In this document: positions 16,390-58,935 of the stretch, piece by piece
Layout: every line of letters starts with the position of its first letter
Position numbering within the stretch: position 1 is the stretch's first letter
From: Polytrichum commune
Taxonomy: Eukaryota > Streptophyta > Polytrichopsida > Polytrichales > Polytrichaceae
DNA: 64,000 nt
NCBI GenBank assembly: GCA_950295325.1
Contig: OX485809.1
Coordinates: forward strand, 8,804,001 to 8,868,000
Direction of reading: 5' to 3'
The notes under the pieces: generated by a model
Databases searched by the model: none
What the model was told of the DNA's origin: nothing
Seen by the model: the letters and a program-made list of their open reading frames with translations, nothing else
Program-made: the position numbers and the translations under genes

Positions 16390-17423
16390 CACTATAAGAA
16401 ACCTGCGTTTTTGGGGTCGTTTTAGGTAAACGGGTTTTGTTTTCACAGATGTCACTGTGTCCGGCAAAAAACGCGCTCAGTATTGTAAATTTAAATGGAT
16501 GTTGCGGGAAACATGTAACAGAATTATGCACGACATGTAGATGTTGTGAAGGACGGGCATGTTTTGTTGGATGTCATTTCAATCATGTAGACGTTCTCCG
16601 GCAACGTGTGCGAGAAACATAAGCACGCCACGTCATCCCCATAGGTCAACCTCTGTGCATGTATAGTCACACTGGTCGCGATGGGCAGACTTACAGAGCT
16701 GCCCGGGAAAAAAAATGTAGGGGAATGGGCAGCTACGTGCGGTTAGCTATGGGAATGGAGCTTCTTTCTAAACAATTTAGGGAATGCCACATAAAGTCCG
16801 CATAATCGCTGAATATGGTGATTTGCTAGCTTCATATTGTCCCCGTACCCATTGAAATATTTTCTGATTGTGAACAAGAGAACAAAGACTTTTGAGGTTT
16901 ATAGTGTCTTTATGTCTTTGCCATAATGTCCACATCTTCGGTAAACAATGTAAGACATGAAGGGCACGACTCCCTTTTGTGTTTGTGGCAGTACCGACAT
17001 TGTAGGCGTACATTGTTTTTAATTTTATAAGCTTTTCATGTGTTCATTTGAGCTTGCGGCCTATAATTTAAATTCAAATACACAAAGAATCTTCCAATCA
17101 TTGAAAAATGTGGCACTTTATTCATCATAAAAACCCGAAAATACATGCGTGGAACTTTTCTTGCTCTTATCCAGAGGCTCATGGCCACATTACATAGTGA
17201 AATGAACACCCGCTCATGCTGAAAATAATGCGCGAAACATATTGTCATCCGTTGGTACATCGTTGATCAGTCAACTGTAGTGGACATTTTTGTGGACGCA
17301 TGAGTAGACGTCAGCTTTGACATTGGGTTCCTGTTCTGCATGACATGCGTTGTGACACTCTTCGGTACATTGGATGCCACGTGCGCTGTGACGTTGTTTC
17401 AGGTGCTTTGGGTCGTCGCCATT

Positions 17424-20400
17424 TCACTGTGTTTCTTCATGGTCTTCTGGTCCACGATCGTCTGCTGCTGCTGGGATGTACACCCTGCCGTCTGTTGCAA
17501 GCTCCCTAGTGGGCTCCACGTCTTCCAGCCGTGGCTGTAAACCCAAGAAATCAGCGTCGTTTCCCACATCTATTATGTTTGGCATAGGGTGGTTGATTTG
17601 TAGTTTTCCGCGTCTACCCCTCACGTCCATTCGACATACAACCTTCCATCCTGGCCTCGTCGGGTCGTTGGAAAAGAAGACTTGTTGACAATGCAATGGA
17701 AATGCAAAAGAATTTGAGTGCACTTTGCCATCCATGCGGTTGAAGTTGGCAACAGTGAAGCCATACCGATCCCGTTCGATGTTTGGATGTCGAGAATCCT
17801 GGCTTGTGCGGACCCAATCGCATACTAGCACAGTCGTGCAATGGTTTCTATAGTCCAACTCTAAAATCTCCTCAATGTAATCCACATACTCCTCGGTTGT
17901 CTCTATGGGTTCCCCATTTCGCAAGCCCCACGGTACTTGCCGTGTGAAAGAGGCCACAACACATGAATCACGCGTGACGAGGCCGCCCTCAGTGCTACGG
18001 ACCCGGAAGTGCATGCCAAATGCATACATTTTCCGGTGTGAGATAGCATATCGTTCGGGAGGTTGCGCGTACTGGAGGACATCATCGTCGACATGTTCGC
18101 CTGCCTGGCGTTGAAAAGTCAGTTGCGACGTCAACCATGATGCAAAACGTGGTAGATCCTGCAGTTCCGAGGGGTAGCGCACTGCCACGGAAGGATGGCG
18201 GCGGCGAAATATGCGCCGAAATTCCTCCCTCTCTTTCCAGCGCTCTACTCTAGCCGCCATGTATTCCCTACAAATAACCAAGTGTCAAGTTATTGCGATT
18301 GTGTGTCCACCTCATAAGCAATAAAAATGAACGTGTAACAAGATTGCACATCAACACGTATATTAGATGCAACGGTCTCTGTCAATACCGGTGTCACAAG
18401 GGACACCGTCTCCAACACATCCTCAGGGTGACCAAAGCATGCCAGGGAATATAAAACATGGAGGCATGGACACATGTTCAAGGGTTCCACTCACTCTCGG
18501 TGAGTCTCCAAGGAAGAGGCGTTGTCCAAAACAAATGCATGTGCATACTCGCGGAACTCATCGGAAATCTTCCGCTTTTGTTGTGCGTTGCAACGGAGAA
18601 TCTCATCATTCATGATTGCGTCTTCTTCAACATCCCATACCCGATGTGTTGTTCCTCTGTACTGATGCATGTACTCGGTGCAAAAACCTAGCGTGTCATC
18701 CATTTGATAACCTTCCGCTATGCTGCCCTCCGGATGTGCAAGTGTTCTCACATAGTCCTTCAATGTTTTCATGTATCGTTCTATTGGATACATCCACCGA
18801 CAGTGCACTGGACCGCACGTAAACAATTGCTCCACCAAATGCACGGGAAGATGCGTCATAACGTTCATAAATGTTGGAGGAAACTCTTTCTCCAAGACAC
18901 ACGTTGCCATCACCACGTCCAACATCATAATCTGTGCGTCTCCTTCCCTCACCTCTTTGGCGCAAAGTCTTTGGAAAACTCTGCTCATTTTAATTATAGC
19001 AGCACGCACGCTTTCGTCTAGTACGTTCCGTATAGCCAAAGGTAAAATCTGCATCATGCGTCACATTGTAGTTCAGATTGACATTGTGTCTCCTCCTGAA
19101 AGACATCACCCAAAACACAGCGATAAGCATGCATCGTTGTTGGAGCACTGTCCGATGAACGTCTACATGGACGACCTCACCTCAACCACGTTTGTATGAC
19201 GTCATGGACGACGTCAAGTGTTGTCTGCCTTTACAACTAAGCCGCATTGATACAGGATGGCATACGGGGAACTTAGTAGTGTGAGCGTAGAGCGGAGAGC
19301 AGAAATTGGAGAGCATCTACCTTGCTTCCGGGACTATCATTCATGCCCAAGAGAGTCTTCAATATGTTCTCGCATAAATTCTTCTCACAATGCATGACAT
19401 CGAGGATGTGCCGTTCTAGCAGATGCTGCACAAGACACATGACATGTACCATCAATGTAAAGCCAACGCAGTGCACGCCAACTCCTCAAAGACCTCCGGG
19501 TACCATGTCCAACAAGAACATCATAAACCTCGTCAGACGTCGTTGTGGATGTCCTTCCGTCATACGCGTCTGGCTTTGCAGGCGATGTGTCTACTTAAAC
19601 ATTGTCATTGAACGCGAACGCTAAACATGGAGTGACATATAGGCCTCACCTTCCAGTAATCCAGCTCGTACAAAACGCTCAATCATTTCACACCTGTGGC
19701 GTGCACAGGATCGTTGGGTCCGTTCTCTCTCCCACCCATCTGTAGGTATGATTCGCGCCACGCTGCATACCGAATGACATCCCCTCCCGTCATCACCTTT
19801 GGCTTCGGACGGTGTTCTTGTATGCCATTAAATATTCTATTGCGGCGATACGGGTGGTGTCGTGGTAAGTATCGACGAATGCCTCCGTATACAATCTTGG
19901 AGCCCCTAATGCTCCTGTTCGGTAACATGTCCCCTATTTTTACCATCCTCGCATCCGTGTCTGGTCCACAACAAGGGCACCCCTTGTAGCCCTTACACGT
20001 AAGACCAGAAATGAGGCCATATGCGGGGAAATCGAAAATGGTCCACATAAGTAAGGCACGCAAGGTGAAAGTGTGATTCCCCCGCGGTTGTGAGAAGTCT
20101 AGTGCTTCCACCCCATGCCAAAGTTCTTGGAGCTCCTTCAATAGTGGACGTATGAACACATCAATATTTGCAGAGGACGGCGACTTCTTTCCTGAAATCA
20201 ATATGCACAATGATATGAAATTTTTTTTTGTCACCAACCATGGGTTGAAGTTGTAAATCAAAATCAACACCGGCCACGTTGACCAGTTGGTGTTGCTTAG
20301 CTTGAAAGGATTCACCCCATCCAGTGCTAGATCCAGTCGCATGTTCCGGTCGTCACGTCCAAAATTGCCGAACGCGATGTCCGAGTTGACGTGCTTCCAT

Positions 20401-21419
20401 GCCGGACTGTCGACCACTGAACGCATGATGCCGTCAGTACTGACGTGTTTGGTGTGGCCTGTCAATAGACGCGCTATCTCAGACGAGCGCCACATCCGTT
20501 TGAACCTTGGAATTAGGGGGAAGTGTCGGATTACTCTCGCGGCAATGTTGTTGCTGCCATCTATCCATCGTCTTTGCGTGCACTTCGGACATACATCCAG
20601 TGTTGCATATTCTTCGTCAAATAGAATACAGCCATTGGGACACGCATGGATGTTATTGTAGTTCAAACCCAGCCGGCGGATGCTCTTCCGAGCCGCATAA
20701 TGAGTTTTCGGCAATTTGTTGGGCACTGGCAACAAATCACCCGACAAAAAACGAAACAACTCGTCAGTGAATGTGTTGCTCATGCGGAACACCAAGCACA
20801 TGTTCATGATGATGATTGTAGCCGACACTACACTCGTTTTTGAGCCCGGGTACAATGCCGTGGTGGCTTCCGTGTACAAACCGTCCAATTCGTCTTCAAT
20901 GTCGATGTCTTCCTCGTCCTCCACATGTAAGGGTCCTTCGTCCTCGGCCTCTTCATGCAGTGCATCCCCTCTGCCTAAGGCCTCTAGCACTTGCCGCTCG
21001 ACCTCGTGGAATTCGTCCAGGAAGGGGGGTGGTTGTTCTTCGTCAACTCCTCCATTGTCAATGTCCAAATGAACACGTGTTGTGTCCGTTGGGATGTCTT
21101 CTATGACATCGTTGTCACAACAGATGTCCTCGACCCACATTCCACCCGGTGGATAGCCCTCTGGGGGGTCTCCGCCTAGTAAAGACTTACGCAGAAATGG
21201 ATCGCGACCAACCGCCGCGTGGTGTTGTCTTATGACTTGGATGCTTTTCCTGCAACCACCCTTGCATTCTCTGCAAGGACACCTAAATGATCGTACATTA
21301 TGCTCCGTCGCCACACGCAACTCCGTGTGAAGTATGATGTCCCCAATAGGCACATGGCGTAGCGTGCGACCATCTTCAGTGACACGAATGGTCGCACCTC
21401 GACGCTGGGCCGAGCCCAT
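17424..21419 (-). pseudogene. CACTA TNP2-type transposase, interrupted
   Basis: Exons on the minus strand: 19650-21419, 19321-19425, a damaged piece ending at 18495 (open from about 19057), and 17424-18267. The first starts at the ATG at 21419 and has an N-terminal Cys-rich FRCPCRECKGGC segment like transposase-associated domains, an acidic linker, then the Transposase_21 core with YGLISGLTCKGYKGCPCC, GGIRRYLPRHHPYRR and, in the next exon, LDVMHCEKNLCENIL. The 18495-19057 exon is DUF4218 (FPPTFMNVMTHLPVHL, GPVHCRWMYPIERYMKTL, PEGSIAEGY). The last exon is DUF4216 (YVDYIEEILELDY, VLVCDW). Damage: an in-frame TGA at 19683-19685 where Arg is expected after TGVK, and loss of the usual linker with stop codons between 19058 and 19320. 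As read, it cannot make a full transposase. Confidence 0.85.
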
Positions 21420-22188
21420 ATGGCTCCCCCGTTGCAATCCCTAGAACGCCCGCTGAAGATACTTTGAGGGTCGTGTAGCAACCGCGACTCACAACAACCT
21501 AGCTTTAGCCCACACACATCGCCACCCTTGCTGTCAATGTTCGCATAGTCCACCATTGAACATGCCTAAGTGTGTGCCTCCTTGAAGATGCATCCATACC
21601 GTGCAAACCAAATGTGTGCATGTCACCGCTAGTGTCCACAATGCCGTCGGGGTTGCTGAGAACACGTCGAACATGACATCTCCCAAGACACCTAAATGAA
21701 GGTTCCCACACGACCCGTTGGGTGTTCAACAAAAACACATGTGTGAACTCTGATTGGTGTAGAATTCCTTGGCCATTGAAGACCATCTGCGCAAAGCGCT
21801 AGGTCTCACATGCATCCCCTACTCTCCAGACCTCGCTTCTTTGGAATGACCACTGAAATCACTATGCACGGAGGTATTTCGTTGTGGAGGTCACTTTGCC
21901 ATTCATCTTATCGGTGGCATGACACTTTTAGTCCATCGCTCAATGAACACCACACTTTGTGATAATCACCCACACGCCAATTTGGGTGTCCAACATGACA
22001 TCTGTGGAAACAGTGGTTTCTACCACCCGAGTAAAAAACCCATGTAAATGTCAATTTCCCACGTGTCCATAGGGTATCCTTCAAACTTGATGCCCCAGAA
22101 GAGCTCGAGCAGGCTCACGGGCATCCTCTAAACCCTAAGCACGGCGGTGAACCTTCTTTGTTGCTGTGAAAGCGCAACACTCGGGAAC
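21420..22188. promoter_or_regulatory. Divergent promoter region of the CACTA element
   Basis: About 770 bp separate the start of the minus-strand transposase (21419) from the first ATG of the plus-strand gene (22189). Several short frames exist but no conserved exon is recognised. The position implies promoters for both genes; no TATA box is clear. Confidence 0.4.
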
Positions 22189-25100
22189 ATGGCGATGTCG
22201 CGTGCAGCACGTGCGACGGCTAGGGTTGTCAACTATGCCGACACATTCCAACAAGCGTGTAGGGTGGACGCAGATGACTCCGAGGCAACACATGTGCTAT
22301 CCAATTTGGTGTTACAATGTACACAGAACAATGCAACGACATCTACCACAAAACTCAACACCTTCGACACCACCCAACCCGCACATTGCCGCCGCAGCTC
22401 ACGCCTGCTCCAAATGTTTAGGAGTGAAAACCACATGGCATATGCTCCATCAAGAAACATACATGACAATCCACCTTCGCCACAGGTGAATCTAACTTAG
22501 CCTAGGTGTGCTTCATAATTTCTACAATTAACAAAGGGGGATTTTTGAGGGATGCTGAAATTTTTTGGTCGCCACTGCCGGAGCTCCTCGGCAATGGCGG
22601 TATTGGCATCCGGACGGACAAGGGTCTTCTATTGCGGCTATGGGTCCCCATATGGCCATAGGAACCTCCATGCCCTTAGGGCTTCTGCCGAGGGGGCTCC
22701 ATGTGGCATCCACGGTTATAGGTCTATAGGAGAGCTCGGCTATAGGACTCCGCGCGGGCATAGGTCACGCCGTCCTCCTCATTACGCCCAAGTGCTCACA
22801 CATGCGTCCTTTGTCTTTGTTTCAATGTTCTTTGTCTTTGTTTCGGTGTTCTCTTCGACGCTCCTGTGCCGCCCCCCATAGTTGAAAATGGTGCGTTCAC
22901 GCGATCGGAGCGGGAAGCGCAAGGCCACCTCTCCAGATTCCAAGGCTCCCCCCGATGTGGATGTTGCTGCATTGAGGCAGCACAGTCGAGCGGCGGGAGA
23001 GAGGAGGTCGAAGGCCAGGGAGGATGTGAGGAGCGTGCCGCCCTCTAGATGCAGAGCACAAGTGAAGCGTCACTCACCTCCTCCGAAGCGCAGCAGGGTA
23101 ATTGAGGTGAGCACTTCGGGTGAGGAGGCAGAAGAGGGCGAACATAGCGAAGGGATGAGTGATCGACAACAATCCTGGAGGTATGTGTTGTTGTCGCATT
23201 TGAATTTCGCTATTTCACATTGTCGCCTCACCTCGGCATAGGCTGTACTTGCCTTTCGGCACCTACATGTGACTCCTCGTATTGGGTAGGGTTTGTTTGT
23301 TGCTCTAAGTGTGCCACAAAGAATTTCTCACTTGGCTGAGTCAACGCCGTTGTCTGCGTCACCGGGTGCATCTCCTTAGACGTGCGAGTGTCTATGTTGA
23401 CATCCAACCTGAAAATTAATGATGGCAGGGTTAGGGCAATACAGTAGTGGCGCCTTGTCTTTGCTTGCAGACAGAGCGCATGATACAGGGTTCAGTGCGC
23501 AGGGTAAAATGGGTAGTGTTCGTTTGTTTGGCTAAGAGTCTCAGAAAGTAGGAATCCAATTGTCTATGTCGACGCCGCTGTCGGTGTCTACGAACGCAGC
23601 TAATTATTCGGGTTAATGTATATGTTGACGTCCAGCCTGAAAATTTAGGGAGCCAGGGTTAGGGTAGTTGGACTAAGCGACCTTGAGCGCAATGGATGAT
23701 TGAGCAGTGGATTTGTAGGACCCTTGGAGGTAGAGCGCAAGCTGCATGGATAATTGAATAGGGTATCACGCTAGGGTTCGTTTGTTGGTCTAAGCGTCTC
23801 ACAGGCCGGGGAAACACTTCACTACGTGGACGCCGTTGTCCGCGTCTTAGAATGTGTCTTCGTAGACGTGCGCGTGTCTGTGAGGATGTCCAATCATTCT
23901 CATATGAACCCCTGGATTGCACCACATTCTGCTCACATGTGGTAAGCATCAAATACACAGCCCACACGAAACGTATAACCCCTGTAAAACCCTCAGTTTT
24001 CGGGCTCAGATCCCCTGTACCCATAATCAAGTGCTGAAACTCTCTCCTGAACACTGCGTCAAGTGCAAGCAAGGACCCCGACTCCTTCAGTGCACCCGAC
24101 ATCAACGAATTCGTAAGCGAGAACATAACCGTGGATGTAATCTGCAACTCCACCGCATCTTGGGAGATATTCTCGTAAGAAGAGCAATCCTTAAGTAGAT
24201 TATACAACTCCTTCACCTCCAGTGCACTCATCCGAACAATCAGGCAAGAGAGCACGAGACAATGACATAAGCTTAGCCTTTCTTTCTGAATGACATCCAT
24301 GCGTTGCACTGCGTGGACACCGCTGTCTGCGTCCTAGAGGATGTCTTCGTAGACGTGGTAGTGTCTATGTTGATGTCCAATCATCACTGAAACATGCCAG
24401 GCCCTCGGTAATTGGACTAAGCGGCCATGAGCGAATTGGATGATGTCGTAACGGATTGATAGCACTAGAAGAAAAAATAACGCTGAATCAACTAGTACAT
24501 AAGAGTTTTCACTTAATAAAACCTCTTGGCTCGGACTAGCTGTTTCGGACAGTGGTGGAGAGGTTTCAGTTGATTTCCGTCCACGTCACCTAGGATTTCG
24601 GCGACATGGTCCACGTCGAATTTTTGGGGTAGTTGCCACATCAAAGAAGTTTCAATTTTGCAAGTTCTTATGGGCATTGGATTTTGTGACTTATTATTAT
24701 AAAATTTTTGGTTTATTTAACTTTTAAATCAACTTTAAATTGAGAAACATTTAGAATGGTCAAATATTTATGCTATTGTGTTGGTTTGTGTCATGTCTAT
24801 CATAGGAACGGTTTGCATGCAATTTAATATACAATAAAATAAGATTTTAGAAGATCATCGAATGATGTGCCTAATGTGACTAATACCCAACCGGGGTATT
24901 AGTCACATTAGTCACATCAATATAAAATCTTGCACAACTCTCACACCCCGAGGCCTAATTTTGTGATAAGTTTTGGGGTAGTTGCCACATCAAAGAAGTT
25001 TCAATTTTGCAAGTTCTTATGGGCATTGGATTTTGTGACTTATTATTATAATTTTTTTGGTTTATTTAACTTTTAAATCAACTTTAAATTGAGAAACAAT

Positions 25101-28100
25101 TAGAATGGTCAAATATTTATGCTATTGTGTTGGTTTGTGTCATGTCTATCATAGGAATGGTTTGCATGCAATTTAATATACAATAAAGTAAGATTTTAGA
25201 AGATCATAGAATGATGTGCCTAATGTGACTAATACCCAGCCGGGGTATTAGTCACATTAGTCACATTATTATAAAATCTTGCACAACTCTCACACCCCGA
25301 GGCCTAATTTTGTGATAATTTTTGGGGTAGTTGCCACATCAAAGAAGTTTCAATTTTGCAAGATCTTATGGGCATTGGATTTTGTGACTTATTATTATAA
25401 TTTTTTGGTTTATTTAACTTTTAATTCAATTTTAAATTGAGAAACGGTTAGAATGGCTAAATGTTTATGCTATTGTGTTGGTTTATGTCATGTCTATCAT
25501 AGGAATGGCTTGCATGCAATTTAATATACAATAAAATAAGATTTTAGAAGATCATGGAATAATGTGACTAATGTGACTAATACCCAACCGGGGTATTAGT
25601 CACATTAGTCACATTAGTTACAACATTATAAAATCTTGCATAAATTTCATTCAAAGTGGTTGGCTAAGCACCATGTGCCAAGACTTTATGGCACTTCACA
25701 TACCAACAATTTCCACTTGATATTAATTGTCCACACTTGATTACTGTTGATTCCATCGCAACCTCATCGCCATTTCCAATTTCCTCTTACTTCCAACAGA
25801 GTTTACTTGGTTTTCAATTGGTTACCTTCACGTTTTCGTGTAGTGTAGGTTCGTTGCAGGCAGAGCGAATGATCCAGGGATGAGTGATTTGGATAAACTG
25901 GGTAGGGTTCGCGTGCTGGTTTAAGTGAGTCACAAACAAGTCCAACACCTGACAGCATGGACGCGAGGATGTCTATGTTGATGTCCAACTGGGTAGGGGG
26001 CGTTTGGTAACGCCAGCGTCGGTGACTAAGGAAAACACATGAATGTATGTTGCTGCCCTGGCGCTATCTCAGACATCATCTACACACAGATGGGATGTAA
26101 TGATCCAGGGAATGTGGTGTGTGCAGCCGAGGCTACGCAACACATTCGGACACAGAAGACTCTGAGGGAGGCAACAGTGATGCGGTGGAAACCTCGCAGC
26201 GGAAACCACCACGAAAGGGAGCAGGGACCACGGGCATGAAGAAACGAGTGAAACTGGACGCACATGGACAACCTTTTGGCTCAATGAAGGCCGTACTGGC
26301 CAGCGATATCAAGAAGTATGCCAAAGATTTGGATCCCACGACAGGGTGGGAAGGCCAACCACGGCATGAGAGAAAACGGTTATTCCGCCGCTTGTACACA
26401 GGTAAGCGTAGCACATGATTTATGCCAAAGTACTTGGGCTCATGTCTCTTTAAACATTAACGCTGGTCCTTCAGATCTGTGTCCAGACCATCATCGCTAG
26501 GAACATGTGCAGGGACACGAAGACGTCGCTTGGAACATCCACCGTGACGGCAATACGTTTGTATTTTAATCCCTCTTTCTTCATGAGCAATCATTGTTTC
26601 TAAGAATGAGATGTTGTTGGTATCCTTTGCACACCAGAATGGCAGCTGTGCGGGCATAGCGACAAAGTCTGCGAGAAGTGGATGCAGCCAATCATCACAA
26701 AGGTCCTCATCAACACACGTTGGAGACTAAATCAACTTATTGACAACAATGCCGCCAAACCAGCTGACGTGGATGCAGAGCACTGGAAGACACTAGTATC
26801 TATGCGCGGTACTGAGGCCGCGCAAGTAAAGTCTGACCATAAGCGAACTATCTCAAAAGGGAAAGGGTCGACCACAGCTCAGATGAAAGCAATTGAAAGG
26901 GAAGTCGTGTCACGATTGGTAAGTAACCAGTGAGGTTTTGTTGAAGCAGATGTTGGTGTTGACATCAGTTGTGTTCGTATATGTAACCTCATCCATCAAG
27001 AACGACGTCATTTTTTATGAGCTGCGTCTGACTCAGCGTAGTATTTGCTTGAAATGGAAGATGTTCATTTTATTTTTGAATTCATTGGAGCATACATTCA
27101 TGTGAGGCTAGCCTTCTGGTGGCACTTGGTGCGTTCACATGTTCTAGTCAAACCTTTTTTGTCACGTGTAATCGAAAATAAGGGTTGCGGTTTTTGCAGA
27201 CGATGTTGAAAGGCCGGCCACCGTATGATGTTGAGGTCGACGCAGAAGTCGCCAAAGAATACCAACGCCTACATGAGGAAAAATGCAGGGTAAAACCAGA
27301 TCATGGCCGCGAGATAGATGAGGTGCGCACTCGTGTGTCAGAGCTGGAGGGCAGCGTCACACGCCTCGGGGAGAACGTGACGGCGTCCCATAAACGCCTG
27401 GAGGATATGATGCAGTTGATTCTTCAAAATCAAGGCAAGAAGCACGTGAATGTAGGTGAGGACATTACAGAACCTTCGTCATCTGCGAAGATCCTGGATA
27501 CATCTGCTCTGACGTCCACCACGGCAGAGCCCACAACGTTGCCACATCATCCCGTCCCCGCCGCACTAGTGACCGCCTTGGCCGCTGCGGACACGCGATT
27601 GGCGTTTGAGGTTCATGTTCCCTGTGACGTCGCCGAAGACGCTGCGACCGAGGCTGCCACAAACAACGAAGGAGTCCACAACAGCGCTGACACCGTTATA
27701 GCGTCCATCATTGAGGATATCCTAGATGAAGAGGGTAAAAAATCTATTGATCCACAAACAACTGAGGACGTAGCAGAGCCCGAATCAGAGGATGTGCATA
27801 TGTGTGCCGTGGAGGAGGTCAACGAAGGGCAGCCCGAGGTTGAGGGCATTGCGGATGTGCCCGAAGACATTGCCAACCTGGAGCAGGTAACATCGACCAA
27901 GACCCTATACTGAAATTCATACAGGGCATTCTGTTAATAACGTTGGGCTAAGTCGTTCTTCATGTTGACGTCCTCAATGATGTTCTACGTGACATACACC
28001 TTGTCGGCAGGATATGTCTTTGGACATCTACTCTGACATAAAGACTTCCCACCCTTGCGGTTGCACATGGCAGGAGGATGTACAGGCAACTGAAGAGTCA

Positions 28101-28322
28101 GCTGGCAAACCTCGCCGCGTTGGGAGGAGCGCGGTTAAATCAGCAATGGTGAAACTCAATGCTCCAAAAGCGGTTGGTTTGCCTAAACCTCCCCAAATTC
28201 CTCCGAAGGTGAGGGAAACAGTGCATGTATGTCAATTTGGGTCGACTCCCTTTACTTGCGGGAGCATCGACATGAACAAGTGCACATGCGCACAGTGTAT
28301 GTATGGCACGTATATGGAATGA
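22189..28322 (+). CDS. CACTA second protein, TNPA/Transposase_24 (Ptta/En-Spm) type, six exons
   Basis: Exons 22189-22485, 22882-23180, 26127-26401, 26638-26918, 27200-27886 and 28011-28322 join in phase at GT-AG sites to an open frame of 716 residues. Exon 2 follows a long pyrimidine tract and encodes a basic, NLS-like stretch (KRHSPPPKRSR). Exons 3-5 match the plant Transposase_24 pattern: a conserved WQLCGHSDKVCEKW block, LINTRWRLNQL, DAEHWKTLVSMRGTEAAQVK, a Lys/Ser-rich segment, then a region with VDAEVAKEYQRLHEEK and a heptad-like VRTRVSELEGSVTRLGENV coiled coil. The C-terminal third is acidic and the end has a CxC...CxxC cluster. By analogy with En/Spm TNPA or Tam1 TNP1 it should bind subterminal motifs of the element. 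Unlike those, it lies on the strand opposite the TNP2 gene. The 5' exon is the least certain. Confidence 0.75.
23937..24232 (-). pseudogene. NUP205: Captured fragment of nucleoporin gene NUP205
   Basis: The minus strand encodes 97 uninterrupted residues that resemble the N-terminal region of plant NUP205, a scaffold nucleoporin of the inner nuclear-pore ring. Recognisable blocks are SALEVKELYNLLKDC, LQITSTVMFSLTNSL, LDAVFRREFQHLIMGTG and EGFTGVIRFVWAVYLML. The segment looks like a single exon: it ends at a GTGAGC donor (ACCACAT|gtgagc) and begins after a pyrimidine-rich tract ending in CG where an acceptor AG would be expected, so flanking intron DNA came with it. It sits antisense in an intron of the CACTA second gene. 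The frame runs on into repeat sequence and is not a working gene. The identification is from remembered family sequence. Confidence 0.7.
24463..25845. mobile_element. Nested non-autonomous CACTA element, TAG target duplication
   Basis: The left end is CACTAGAAGAAAAAA and the right end, read inward, CACTACACGAAAACG. TAG flanks both sides (24460-24462 and 25846-25848). It has no coding capacity, and most of it consists of three 349-bp direct repeats. Its termini differ from those of the host CACTA element, so it belongs to another family. Confidence 0.85.
24622..25640 (+). repeat. Three 349-bp direct repeats, each with a palindrome
   Basis: The units start with TTTTGGGGTAGTTGCCACAT at 24622, 24971 and 25320, so the period is exactly 349 bp; the third copy is more diverged. 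Each unit includes a near-perfect inverted repeat AATGTGACTAATACCC / GGGTATTAGTCACATT (first copy 24873-24909) with a 5-base spacer. Confidence 0.92.
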
Positions 28323-29474
28323 AACCCACTAATACATGTCATGGTGTATTGTGAATGGCGGTGGGATGTGGCAGGTAGGGGGTGGTACGAAACCGCAACC
28401 GTAACGGAAGAAATGAGACATCGACAGTAATGCCTATCGTGAAGTTTGGAGTGGCTCAAGCATGTTCTAGCCAACCTTGCAGTACTACAATAGCCGTTGT
28501 AGACTTTGACATTGCAAACAAGCATTAAGTTTTGGTGGACTAGTTTCCGATATGTAATAGCGTCCATGTAGTCGCAAAGTGTTACTCAATCAATACAATG
28601 TTTTTTATGTTTTGCAACGCCTTGGTCTACAATATTTGTTCCTTGCGTCCTTTGTGTCTGTTAAATGGCCATGTGCAACACGTGGCGCTGAGGCTGATTC
28701 ATGTAGATGCCCTAAAAGATGACCCCCTCACAATTGGTAGATCTAATAGCCCTTAGACTCTGTGTCTGCATTGTCATTGAGTACTTCAGGCCAACATCCA
28801 CGCCAACTCAAGCCCATGTTGAAAACGATGTTCTCATGAATGGGATGGTGTCTCCAAGAATTCACCGTCACACATGCTATGTTTTTCCCACCACATCGTA
28901 AAAACATGTAATGTCCAACATGATGTCCCAGAAAACGTTCTTATGTCACATAGGCCGTCAAACATAACAATGCACAAAACCCAAAATCCTTTGAATTGAA
29001 TATCCGCGTCGACCAAGATGTCTCACATAACATTTCCTTGTCCCAGTGGACGTCTGCCAAACCGCGCACAAGACATATAACTTCACAGAACACAATGTCC
29101 ACGTCAGCAATAACGAATGCCACGTCAGAATTTGGCGGTCCACATCATTTCTAAAGGGGGTCCACATGACACCCCACGTCAGCAAGGGAACAAATGCAAA
29201 ACTTGTCGTTGTGGCACTGCCCGCTTAAAACTTGCCTGCGTGGAGGCCACGTGCCCTCCACGTGCCCCTATGTCGGGAGCATGGAAGATGTCGTTTTATA
29301 TGACGTCACATAAAAACATGTTGAAATTCGGCATGTTATCTATGTTTATTGGGCGTTTTTGCCATGTCCTTCATAACGGATTTTAGGTGACGTCTCAGAG
29401 GAGTACTTCCATGTCAAAGCGAACGCGATTTGCCATTTTTTTTACGTCCAAAAAAACAACGTTTTCTTATAGTG
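28323..29474. other. Right subterminal region of the CACTA element
   Basis: No gene is recognised. CCACGTCAGC and GACGTC-type motifs recur between about 29040 and 29400, in keeping with a subterminal region bound by the element's own protein. Which short motif is the actual repeat was not counted systematically. Confidence 0.45.
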
Positions 29475-37065: not shown

Positions 37066-38104
37066 CAAGATTTCAAGTCTATGAAGCTTAGTCCCTAGCT
37101 TCCCAAGCAACCCATTTTTGGTTGATGGATGATTTGTTCTCTACATTACCCTCACCTAACTCATTCGTTTGTAGTCAAAATAATTATAAACATCAGGCCA
37201 ACATGGATATATACGTACCCGTAGACACATGAGCCATGCAATTTGGGAATGATCGGAATGTGTAAAAAAATTGTCAAAGTGGGAAGTGGTCATTTTTTGT
37301 TGTGTATGGGAGCTTGTGTGAGGGTGTTGATTCCAATCAATGTTTGCCGCTTTAGTGCAAACTTTGCGTGAACATCAAAGATGTTTATTTTGGTAAAAGC
37401 GATTTTGTTAAAAAGAATGTTCATGTAATTATTGGCTTTGTGCTCACATCGACCGTTCAATTTAACATTTGATCACCCTCTAATTTGTAGGGAATTATGT
37501 GCATGTACGTGATCAAAAATATGGGATGGTTTACATACTCCAAATGCATGGTGGCTAGCCTATTGTGGCTTGCACATTTTGGCATGAGAATCTGTACAGG
37601 TACTCAACTATTAAGTTGTTCCCATCTAGTGGATCACACAAGCATTCCACTCATTTTCTAGGTGAATTTGATTGGTCAAAGGTTTGTTTCGGGGGATAAA
37701 GCATGGCATTTCCTCATGCAACACTTCCTTCGATTATTATACTCTAAACATCCAAAGGAGTTTTATATGCCCATCCCCCCCCCTCACTTCCCATGTTTCA
37801 AGATCCTACAGACAAATCCCATTTTAGCCTCAAAATTTGTAAACAAAATTTCCACAACAAACATCAAGTGAAATGCGCTCAAAACAACCATTTCATAAGC
37901 TTGGGGAGTTACCATAGGGATTAATGTTGTCACAACAAAATCTTTGTTTCAGCAATAGAATAGGGTTGGGGCAAAACAACCTGTACATTGGTTTCTTGGA
38001 GACAAGGCTGCAATCATCCAACAAGGAAGCAATGTATGGGTTGGTTTGCCCTCCCCAATAGAATGGTGGAAAGGCGTTCCTTTCAACTTAGTATATTGAC
38101 AAAC

Positions 38105-56275: not shown

Positions 56276-56760
56276 ATCAATGTGATTGCATTATTTCTAT
56301 GTGAAAGAGAGACGTTACACCCCCGGCCCCCACCTCCTCTAGGTGGATGTAAGCTTATACATGTTATAACGAGCCCGCAAATTTATATGGTGGAAAATGA
56401 CATGGGGCTTTACGGTGTAGGGTAGTCATCCTCTTCCCAAATGCCAAATGGTTATGACTTGGAAATTGGTATCCACATGGGCATAAAAACTTCGAATACC
56501 TAGGTGGAGAGACTTGGAAGACAAGTCTAGGGAAGGCTGCACTCTGATATTTATCCTAGGTTTGTAAGTAAGTGCATGCGTTTCGGGCTGAGCGATCATC
56601 AACATTTTAGGGCTCGGGTTCGTCTTCTTCATCTTCTTGGCTAGGGCAGAGGAGCACTAGGGTTTCACTCGTCTTCGTTTCCTCAGCGTACAAAAGATTG
56701 GGATTTGGTGGGAGCGTGAATTGGTGTTGTGAGCAGAGCAGCGCAGAGGAGGCAGGAGTG
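56276..56760 (+). promoter_or_regulatory. ABCF4 upstream region and leader with telo-box
   Basis: The stretch is directly upstream of the ABCF4 ATG. TAGGGTTT (telo-box core, complement AAACCCTA) occupies 56658-56665, about 100 bases before the ATG. The leader is purine-rich. The transcription start is not placed. Confidence 0.55.
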
Positions 56761-58935
56761 ATGGTGAGGAAGAAGGATGAAGCGACTTCCAATTCGGCCG
56801 CAGCGAAAGGGAAGGGAGGGGATGGATCGAAGGCCGGAGGGAAGGAGAAGAAGGAACGCATTTCGGTGTCATCGTTGCTGAGCAACATGGACAAGCCGAA
56901 GCCGGAGAAGGTTGCCCCCAAGCCTGCCAAGAAGGAGGCGAAGGCGAAGGAAGCCAGTGCGTACACGGCAGGAATCGACTTGCCGCCCTCGGATGAAGAA
57001 GATGAAGGCATGGATAGTGATGAGGAGGCCGCGTTGGCATTGAGGCGCGGGCCTGGACGGACGTTGGATTTATCCGTCACAGACCGCTTTGCGAAGAAGA
57101 AGGAGAAGAAGGAGATGGTGGCTGAGCGGGCCGCAGATTTTGCGAAGCAGGAGGCCATGAAGGACGACCGGAATGCGTTCTCGGTTGTGATTGGAGCGAA
57201 GACCTCGGTGCTTGAAGGCGAGGATGCTGTCGACGCGGGAATGAAGGACATAAAGGTGGAGAATTTCTCAGTGTCTGCCCGTGGTAAGGAGCTTCTCAAG
57301 AACACTTCCATAACTATTGTTCATGGCAGGCGTTATGGTCTGGTAGGGCCTAATGGGACTGGGAAGTCGACCTTGTTGAAGCTGCTTGCGTGGCGTCAAA
57401 TTCCTGTTCCGAAGAACATTGATGTTCTGTTGGTGGAACAAGAAGTCGTTGGAGATGACCGCACTGCTCTGGAAGCTGTAGTGTCTGCGGACGAAGAATT
57501 AGTTCGGTTGAGGACAGAGGCTGCCCGTTTGCAAAGTGTTGGTGAGGCAAGTACTGGTAGGGATGATGATGATGAAGCTGACGAAGCTGGGGAGATGTTG
57601 ACCCAAGTGTATGAGAAGATGCAGGCCTTAGGATCCGATGCTGCAGAGTCCCGAGCTTCGAAGATTTTGGCAGGGTTAGGGTTTACTGTGGCGATGCAGG
57701 GCAGATCTACGAAATCGTTCAGTGGAGGATGGCGGATGCGTATTTCCCTGGCGAGGGCTTTGTTCATGCAGCCCACGTTGTTGCTTCTGGATGAACCCAC
57801 CAATCATTTGGATTTGAGAGCAGTCATCTGGCTTGAGGAGTATCTCATGAGGTGGAAGAAAACGTTGATTGTTGTCTCTCACGATCGGGAGTTTCTGAAT
57901 TCGGTCTCTAGTGACATCATACATTTGCATGATTGTAAGCTACTTGTATACAAGGGCAACTTTGCGGCTTTCGAGGAGATGTATGAACAAAAGCGCAGAG
58001 AGAACAACAAGAAGTTTGATGTATTTGAGAAGCAGTTAAAGGCTGCAAAGCGGAGTGGGAGCAAGGCTCAGCAAGATAAGGTGAAGGACCGTGCTAAATT
58101 TGCTGCTGGAAAGGATGCCAAGTCCAAGGGAAAGTCTAAATCTGGAGTTGTTGATGATGAGGATAACGCACCTGAGGCACCCAAGAGGTGGCGGGACTAT
58201 GTGGTTGAGTTCCATTTTCCAGAACCCACAGAACTTACTCCTCCCTTGCTACAGCTCATTGATGTTGGCTTTGGTTACCCCGGTCGACCAGATTTTGCTT
58301 TACATGGAATTGACGTAGGAGTTGATATGGGTACGCGTGTTGCTATTGTGGGGCCAAACGGAGCTGGAAAGTCAACACTCTTGAATTTGCTGGCTGGAGA
58401 TCTTACTCCCAACGAAGGACAATCAAGGCAAAGCCAGAAACTCAGAGTGGGTCGGTATTCTCAACATTTTGTGGATTCGCTGACCATGGATGAGACTCCA
58501 GTCCAGTATCTGTTGCGATTGCATCCGGATCAAGAGGGTCCGAGTAAACAGGAAACAGTCAGAGCCAAGCTTGGGAAATTTGGGCTACCTAGCCATAATC
58601 ATCTCACCCCCATTGTGAAGCTTTCTGGTGGTCAAAAAGCTAGGGTCGTCTTTACATCCATCTCCATGGCTCGACCACATATTTTGCTACTGGATGAGCC
58701 CACCAATCATCTTGACATGCAAAGTATTGATGCATTGGCTGACGCATTGGATGAATTCACTGGAGGTGTAGTGCTCGTCAGTCACGACGCCAGATTGATT
58801 TCTCGGGTTTGTGAAGAAGAGGAGAGAAGTGAAATCTGGGTGGTGGAGGATGGAACTGTTAGGAAGTACCCTGGCAGTTTTGATGAATACAAATCTGAGC
58901 TGATCAAGGAGATTGTAGCGGAGGTGGAGGATTAG
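56761..58935 (+). CDS. ABCF4: ABC transporter F family member 4 (ABCF4/GCN20-type), intronless
   Basis: A soluble, ribosome-associated ATPase of the ABCF family with two ATP-binding domains and no membrane segment; relatives (yeast GCN20/New1, plant ABCF4/GCN4) act in translation control and stress responses. The 724 residues begin with a Lys/Glu-rich charged region (1-160). Domain 1 has Walker A GPNGTGKSTLL (about 195), signature FSGGWRMRISLARALF (about 320) and Walker B LLLLDEPTNHLD (about 340), followed by the ABCF linker. Domain 2 has Walker A GPNGAGKSTLL (about 531), signature LSGGQKARVVFTS (about 620) and Walker B ILLLDEPTNHLD (about 641). The ATG at 56761 is the first in frame after an upstream stop-free stretch lacking ATG. 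All motifs are intact. Confidence 0.96.
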   Translation: MVRKKDEATSNSAAAKGKGGDGSKAGGKEKKERISVSSLLSNMDKPKPEKVAPKPAKKEAKAKEASAYTAGIDLPPSDEEDEGMDSDEEAALALRRGPGRTLDLSVTDRFAKKKEKKEMVAERAADFAKQEAMKDDRNAFSVVIGAKTSVLEGEDAVDAGMKDIKVENFSVSARGKELLKNTSITIVHGRRYGLVGPNGTGKSTLLKLLAWRQIPVPKNIDVLLVEQEVVGDDRTALEAVVSADEELVRLRTEAARLQSVGEASTGRDDDDEADEAGEMLTQVYEKMQALGSDAAESRASKILAGLGFTVAMQGRSTKSFSGGWRMRISLARALFMQPTLLLLDEPTNHLDLRAVIWLEEYLMRWKKTLIVVSHDREFLNSVSSDIIHLHDCKLLVYKGNFAAFEEMYEQKRRENNKKFDVFEKQLKAAKRSGSKAQQDKVKDRAKFAAGKDAKSKGKSKSGVVDDEDNAPEAPKRWRDYVVEFHFPEPTELTPPLLQLIDVGFGYPGRPDFALHGIDVGVDMGTRVAIVGPNGAGKSTLLNLLAGDLTPNEGQSRQSQKLRVGRYSQHFVDSLTMDETPVQYLLRLHPDQEGPSKQETVRAKLGKFGLPSHNHLTPIVKLSGGQKARVVFTSISMARPHILLLDEPTNHLDMQSIDALADALDEFTGGVVLVSHDARLISRVCEEEERSEIWVVEDGTVRKYPGSFDEYKSELIKEIVAEVED

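Follow-up and report, generated by a model that had tools for sequence, protein, structure and literature searches.

An Antisense Piece of an Intronless NUP205 Gene in an Intron of a CACTA Transposon of Polytrichum commune

Introduction

How does an open stretch of coding sequence for the nuclear-pore protein NUP205 come to lie antisense within the intron of a transposon-borne gene, and is it of any consequence for the host gene that it resembles? The locus is found in a window of 64,000 nucleotides of Polytrichum commune, this being the whole stretch of DNA that was analysed (G000:C7:8804001-8868000, in a genome searched as 408 Mb in 64 contigs). The original prediction, made from the letters of the window, described a NUP205 exon captured at the DNA level by a CACTA element together with its intron borders, and proposed that transcription across it could affect the host NUP205. 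As set out below, the observation is partly confirmed and its interpretation partly supported. The capture is well documented, the donor, the piece and seven sister copies of the transposon all being readable.

The CACTA Element and Its Second Gene

The element that holds the piece is closed by terminal inverted repeats (TIRs) at 16390-16420 and 29444-29474, which start CACTATAAGAA and form an inverted repeat of 31 nt with 77% complementarity. Its flanks read AAA/CACTATAAGAA and TTCTTATAGTG/AAA, giving a 3-bp target duplication, and its inverted-repeat ends begin with CACTA and finish with TAGTG, as in the CACTA (En/Spm) superfamily (Table 1). The same superfamily is indicated by a transposase of the tnp2 type, in which the block 19683-21440 matches Transposase_21 (Pfam, E = 3.9e-62) and the block 18491-19060 matches DUF4218 (E = 1.4e-33); a further block at 17424-18284 corresponds to DUF4216 with E = 1.1e-6 and 29.5 bits, slightly under the cut-off of 30.6.

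Table 1. Features of the CACTA element in window coordinates (a slash marks a splice border).
Feature	Position	Strand	Description
Main CACTA element	16390..29474	.	13,085 bp; TIRs and 3-bp target duplication AAA
tnp2 transposase region	17424..21440	-	Three open blocks, from frames and Pfam
Second gene, exon 1 (begins MVRSRDRSGKRK)	22888..23180	+	Protein-level conservation; donor GAG/GTATGT
Second gene, intron 1	23181..26108	+	GT..AG borders between conserved exons; phase fits by coordinates
Repeat unit 3 (approximate limits)	23814..23892	+	Adjoins the NUP205 piece on the left
Captured NUP205 coding fragment	23893..24309	- (antisense to second gene)	417 bp, 139 codons, frame open
Repeat unit 4 (approximate limits)	24310..24450	+	Adjoins the NUP205 piece on the right
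Nested non-autonomous CACTA	24463..25845	.	Termini CACTAGAAGAA...TTTTCGTGTAGTG; target duplication TAG; ~349-bp tandem repeats
Second gene, exon 2	26109..26401	+	Borders CCAG/GG and ACAG/GTAAGC
Second gene, later coding blocks	~26634-26923 and 27195-27913 (26634..27913)	+	Conservation in L016; borders approximate

The second gene is recognizable by its conservation in two distant copies of the element, L015 and L016. Exon 1 is conserved as protein in both (45% and 47%, respectively), while exon 2 has 74% amino-acid identity to L016 along its length and a partial match in L015; the later blocks reach 84% (~26634-26923) and 59% (27195-27913) identity to L016 in their best-aligned parts. When the borders of intron 1 are sought by exact pattern, in which a single base change scores as a miss, the donor site is found in four of the five subfamily copies tested and in both distant copies, and the acceptor in four of the five and in neither distant copy. 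Between these borders lie, besides the NUP205 piece, a nested CACTA element and four repeat units related to one another; the units on either side of the piece are alike (23820-23895 versus 24307-24382, 82%). With exons 1 and 2 conserved either side of it and GT..AG borders around it, the piece does lie antisense within a second-gene intron, as predicted.

Three other observations concern this region and the window at large. Copies of the nested CACTA in L018, L019 and L021 precede an exon 2 of the second gene with 75-79% similarity to that of the window, with the target duplication TGT; since the window has TAG, the nested element entered this part of a CACTA at least twice. The second gene of L010 contains an insert of ~1 kb (L010 5719-6729); 11 bases of window sequence align at each of its ends, as if a transposon had made a long target duplication. 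Elsewhere in the window, a 774-codon open frame on the plus strand (56611-58935) resembles what we take to be an ABCF-type protein with two ATP-binding cassettes.

The Source of the Piece

The nucleotide similarity to the genome's own NUP205, on which the original prediction was made to depend, is present. A NUP205 gene on contig C4 (L008 4445-4861) is identical to the piece at 380 of 417 bases (91.1%) without a gap and with E = 3e-168, which excludes a chance match and supports the claimed capture by a CACTA element, with NUP205 as the source. At the protein level, a 104-residue translation of the piece matches the solved NUP205 9sob in the PDB (E = 6.6e-14) and, with 86% amino-acid identity, the genome's own NUP205 (E = 1.2e-50); over the whole piece, 19 of 139 residues differ. 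A Pfam scan of the 104-residue translation gives no family, so that the assignment to NUP205 rests on the PDB matches and the C4 DNA alignment. The genome-wide DNA search with the piece listed two places, the window and C4, these counts being lower bounds; the protein search also listed three short blocks of a second NUP205-like gene on contig C2, at 50-66% identity.

The span first proposed, 23937-24232, does hold NUP205 homology, with limits that proved too short. The frame is indeed uninterrupted, the 139 codons of the full piece containing no stop and belonging to a 224-codon stop-to-stop frame (23659-24333). This is unsurprising: among 20,000 simulated copies with 37 random substitutions, 27% stay open, and selection for an open frame is thus not needed.

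The C4 gene is a single stop-to-stop frame of 1952 codons, with 1912 residues from the first ATG (L008 3842-9580). Its protein, searched against the PDB as a query of 1913 residues that starts two codons upstream of the ATG and ends one codon short, is collinear with NUP205 of 9sob from query position 3-1904 to chain position 1-1831 (1692 bits, E = 0), and this full-length similarity identifies the donor as a NUP205 gene. The Pfam family Nup192 is above the cut-off in two stretches of the same protein; that search listed neither the C2 gene nor the piece. Alignment of the C2 gene (L009/L017) to the C4 protein yields 19 blocks, spanning residues 103-1037; one has an E of 0.37 and two contain stops that resemble intron read-through. 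Within the stretch that corresponds to the piece, the C2 gene is broken by gaps of 181, 87 and 203 bp, presumed introns with approximate splice sites. It was rejected as the donor on account of these intron-like gaps, the 50-66% identity of its blocks and the lack of any DNA match to the window at E 1e-3.

Among the NUP205 sequences found, only the intronless frame on C4 is full-length; its intron-rich relative on C2 matches residues 103-1037 only. When the C-terminal part (~residues 1011-1911) served as query, C4 was the sole place listed at E values up to 1. From its sequence, the C4 gene looks like a retrogene that replaced an intron-bearing parent. A few hundred bases upstream of its frame there is a tandem array of ~102-bp units (L008 2448-3433), one unit of which, 77-83% identical, also occurs in the window at 37964-38051.

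Probable Loss of the Piece From Sister Copies

Subfamily copies of the main element were found with two DNA probes, one made of exon 1 and the left part of the intron, the other of the right part of the intron and exon 2. Together these listed eight places at 96-100%, the window included, a count that copies without both probe regions would escape. None of the 18-mers of the piece occurs in any of the seven other copies (L010, L011, L012, L013, L014, L020, and L022). In all seven the site is deleted, at four different junctions. Junction a is common to L010, L011, and L014, and junction b to L012 and L020; c occurs in L013 and d in L022, where the alignment jumps from 19597 to 25780. Every deletion removes the left terminus of the nested CACTA, which is present in the window copy and in none of the others, while its right end is at the same site in all (by exact pattern in six of the seven, by alignment in L011). 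Breaks at this terminus, mended with loss of DNA, would explain why all the deletions span it.

An undisturbed site without the piece was seen neither in the five closest tnp2 relatives listed (from 75 scored of 784 candidates) nor in L020 and L022. In the distant copies L015 and L016 the exons are shared and this portion of the intron is not, and the ancestral state is therefore undecided by them.

How many times was the piece lost? In the simplest register of the 349-bp repeats (L010, L012, and L013), none of junctions a, b, and c contains another, which would imply at least three losses. The right-hand breakpoints of all three fall in these tandem repeats, whose number varies (L011 and L014 align one unit beyond L010), so that one deletion may have been enlarged into another; likewise, deletion d may have overwritten an earlier one. 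An unrooted tree pairs the window copy with L013 (support 0.80) and a tree rooted with L016 pairs it with L012 (0.85, with a root support of 0.60). The rooted tree does not place the window copy outside the others, which favours more than one loss. Support for these trees is weak.

Age and Decay of the Piece

When was the piece acquired? Six copies, that of the window and L010-L014, were compared over six blocks, L020 and L022 being outside the comparison. The window copy differs from the other five by 1.0-3.4% according to the block; its terminal branch is 0.0153 and its largest distance to another copy in the intergenic block is 0.0311. If changes are counted at a single rate over the 417 bp of the piece together with 95 synonymous donor sites, the branch predicts 7.8 differences between piece and donor and the distance predicts 15.9, against 37 observed (P = 4e-14 and P = 4e-6, respectively). 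This excess over what sister-copy divergence predicts suggests that the capture probably predates the spread of the sister copies, on the assumption of similar rates and of the C4 NUP205, rather than a lost diverged copy, as template.

The substitutions themselves (dN 0.066, dS 0.198) fit an unconstrained piece facing a constrained donor. The non-synonymous share of 20.5 in 37, tested as 20, agrees with such a pair (P = 0.31) and disagrees with two unconstrained sequences (P = 0.002). When the 19 amino-acid changes are polarised with the C2 gene, the C2 residue is donor-like in six, piece-like in two and neither in 11, a non-significant lean in the same direction (P = 0.29).

Capture and Its Alternatives

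The explanation that we consider probable is an early capture of a piece of the intronless NUP205, followed by its decay as a passenger and by its loss at the nested terminus. Before the present subfamily spread, the CACTA element would have taken the 417-bp internal coding piece into intron 1 of its second gene, where the repair of a break probably copied the NUP205 stretch in between two repeat units belonging to the intron itself. The junctions fit such repair copying NUP205 DNA: at the left one, ATCAT is common to the window, the donor and repeat unit 4, and at the right one, CAC is common to the window, the donor and repeat unit 3. These overlaps are short, and present-day units stand in for the lost pre-capture site. 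The piece would afterwards have decayed, and transposase cuts or other breaks at the left terminus of the nested element, 153 bp away, would have been mended with loss of the flanking DNA.

The piece could instead be a late acquisition of the window copy alone, taken from a diverged NUP205 copy now lost or absent from the assembly. Its presence in one of the eight copies found suits that course of events, and the 9% divergence might then be that of the lost donor. Against it, no such NUP205 copy is among the matches listed, and the other seven copies have deletions there in place of an undisturbed site without the piece. Late capture is the main competitor, with an appreciable minority chance of being right.

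An RNA template is a less probable route again. A break in the intron of the CACTA element might have been filled with a reverse-transcribed NUP205 fragment, and an intronless donor yields the identical sequence from DNA or from mRNA; the piece is, however, internal and without poly-A, and its short junction overlaps suit DNA template switching at least equally well. These two features lean, and only lean, towards a DNA template.

Possible Antisense Function

With early capture as the preferred history, could the piece have acted on NUP205, or act on it still? One conceivable link with its disappearance is that the antisense piece once contributed to homology-dependent silencing of NUP205, an essential gene, and put its carriers at a selective disadvantage, so that only copies that deleted the piece spread. 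We hold this to be very improbable; if it were true, the four deletion junctions would be the trace of a conflict and not the collateral of a nested terminus.

Rated marginally lower still is a present function, whereby the pre-mRNA of the second gene, or small RNAs made from it, would lower NUP205 in trans. Exact identity to NUP205 extends to 36 of the 397 possible 21-mers and 16 of the 394 possible 24-mers, with a longest run of 33 bases; judged by this overlap, an action of piece-derived small RNAs on NUP205 is possible in principle. On the other side, intron RNA is normally short-lived. Mild arguments against a retained function come from the absence of the piece in the seven other copies and from substitutions compatible with unconstrained decay. 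There is a precedent for a small RNA borne by a CACTA element that regulates a host gene, namely miR820 and OsDRM2 in rice (PMC3459959). A decaying passenger is the best reading of the piece, which appears to lack function. Should RNA data reveal an effect on NUP205, the locus would allow conflict between a transposon and an essential gene of its host to be tested.

Splice Borders

The idea that the element captured, at the DNA level, a NUP205 exon plus its intron borders is the least credible of all and is rejected on the C4 alignment. The homology runs 44 bp and 77 bp past the two claimed ends, still in frame and across both borders, in a donor that has no intron there; the claimed GTGAGC donor site reads GTGACT within continuous coding homology of the C4 gene, and what was taken for a pyrimidine tract upstream of 24232 corresponds to coding sequence there. 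The ends of the piece do not, therefore, match splice sites in the donor. In favour of an exon, the claimed start at 24232 is ~6 bases from the 181-bp gap, a presumed intron, of the C2 gene; at the other claimed border, however, the C2 block continues unbroken, and the piece is without any of the three C2 gaps. Since the C4 donor is one continuous frame collinear with NUP205, the piece is a continuous coding stretch and not an exon with splice borders. What is left of the original interpretation is the capture itself, with NUP205 as the source and an antisense position in the second-gene intron; whether it went by DNA is not readable from introns when the donor has none. An open frame in a transposon can look like an exon without being one, because the donor may be an intronless gene, as it is here.

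Relation to Known Systems

CACTA elements are already known to capture pieces of host genes, and the NUP205 case adds a member. A search of titles and the beginnings of abstracts, covering few subscription papers, found among the entries listed no report that NUP205 had been captured or that a plant NUP205 lacks introns. Particular to this member are a donor without introns, a location within an intron of an element that bears a transposase, and deletions adjacent to a nested element. The deletions illustrate that a captured piece can vanish again: with four different junctions around the end of the nested element, they took it out of the seven other copies found.

The closest likeness is to the Pack-CACTA or Pack-TYPE elements of Arabidopsis, rice and maize, in which CACTA-type termini surround a copied host coding fragment (PMC8903248). 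The same is true here, with a donor traceable to C4. Pack-TYPE elements are non-autonomous, whereas this one retains long open tnp2 frames, apparently of a transposase gene (blocks of 585, 189, and 286 codons), and a second gene. Multiplication of the captured piece, usual for Pack-CACTA without strictly defining it, is not seen: two genomic DNA matches were listed, the piece and its donor, and none of the seven other copies has it. The proposed Pack-CACTA mechanism, the aberrant excision of closely spaced tandem elements as outlined in PMC13317346, would leave host DNA enclosed by portions of two elements; in the present case, a piece of a distant gene is in the intron of a transposon gene.

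The soybean element Tgm-Express1, a CACTA with five host gene fragments, is similar in that host fragments are carried by a CACTA element in both cases (PMC1947982). Its fragments have kept their introns as well as their exons, and splicing makes chimeric RNAs of them, while in the present element there is one intronless fragment, antisense in a transposon intron and without donor-derived splice borders.

The miR820 element of rice resembles this one in holding complementarity to a host gene inside a CACTA (PMC3459959). In that system, the microRNA, its effect on OsDRM2 and a co-evolving target site are demonstrated, and the carriers proliferated. The complementarity of the NUP205 piece, by comparison, is known as an overlap of sequence, and among the two DNA matches listed, the copies bearing it have not multiplied.
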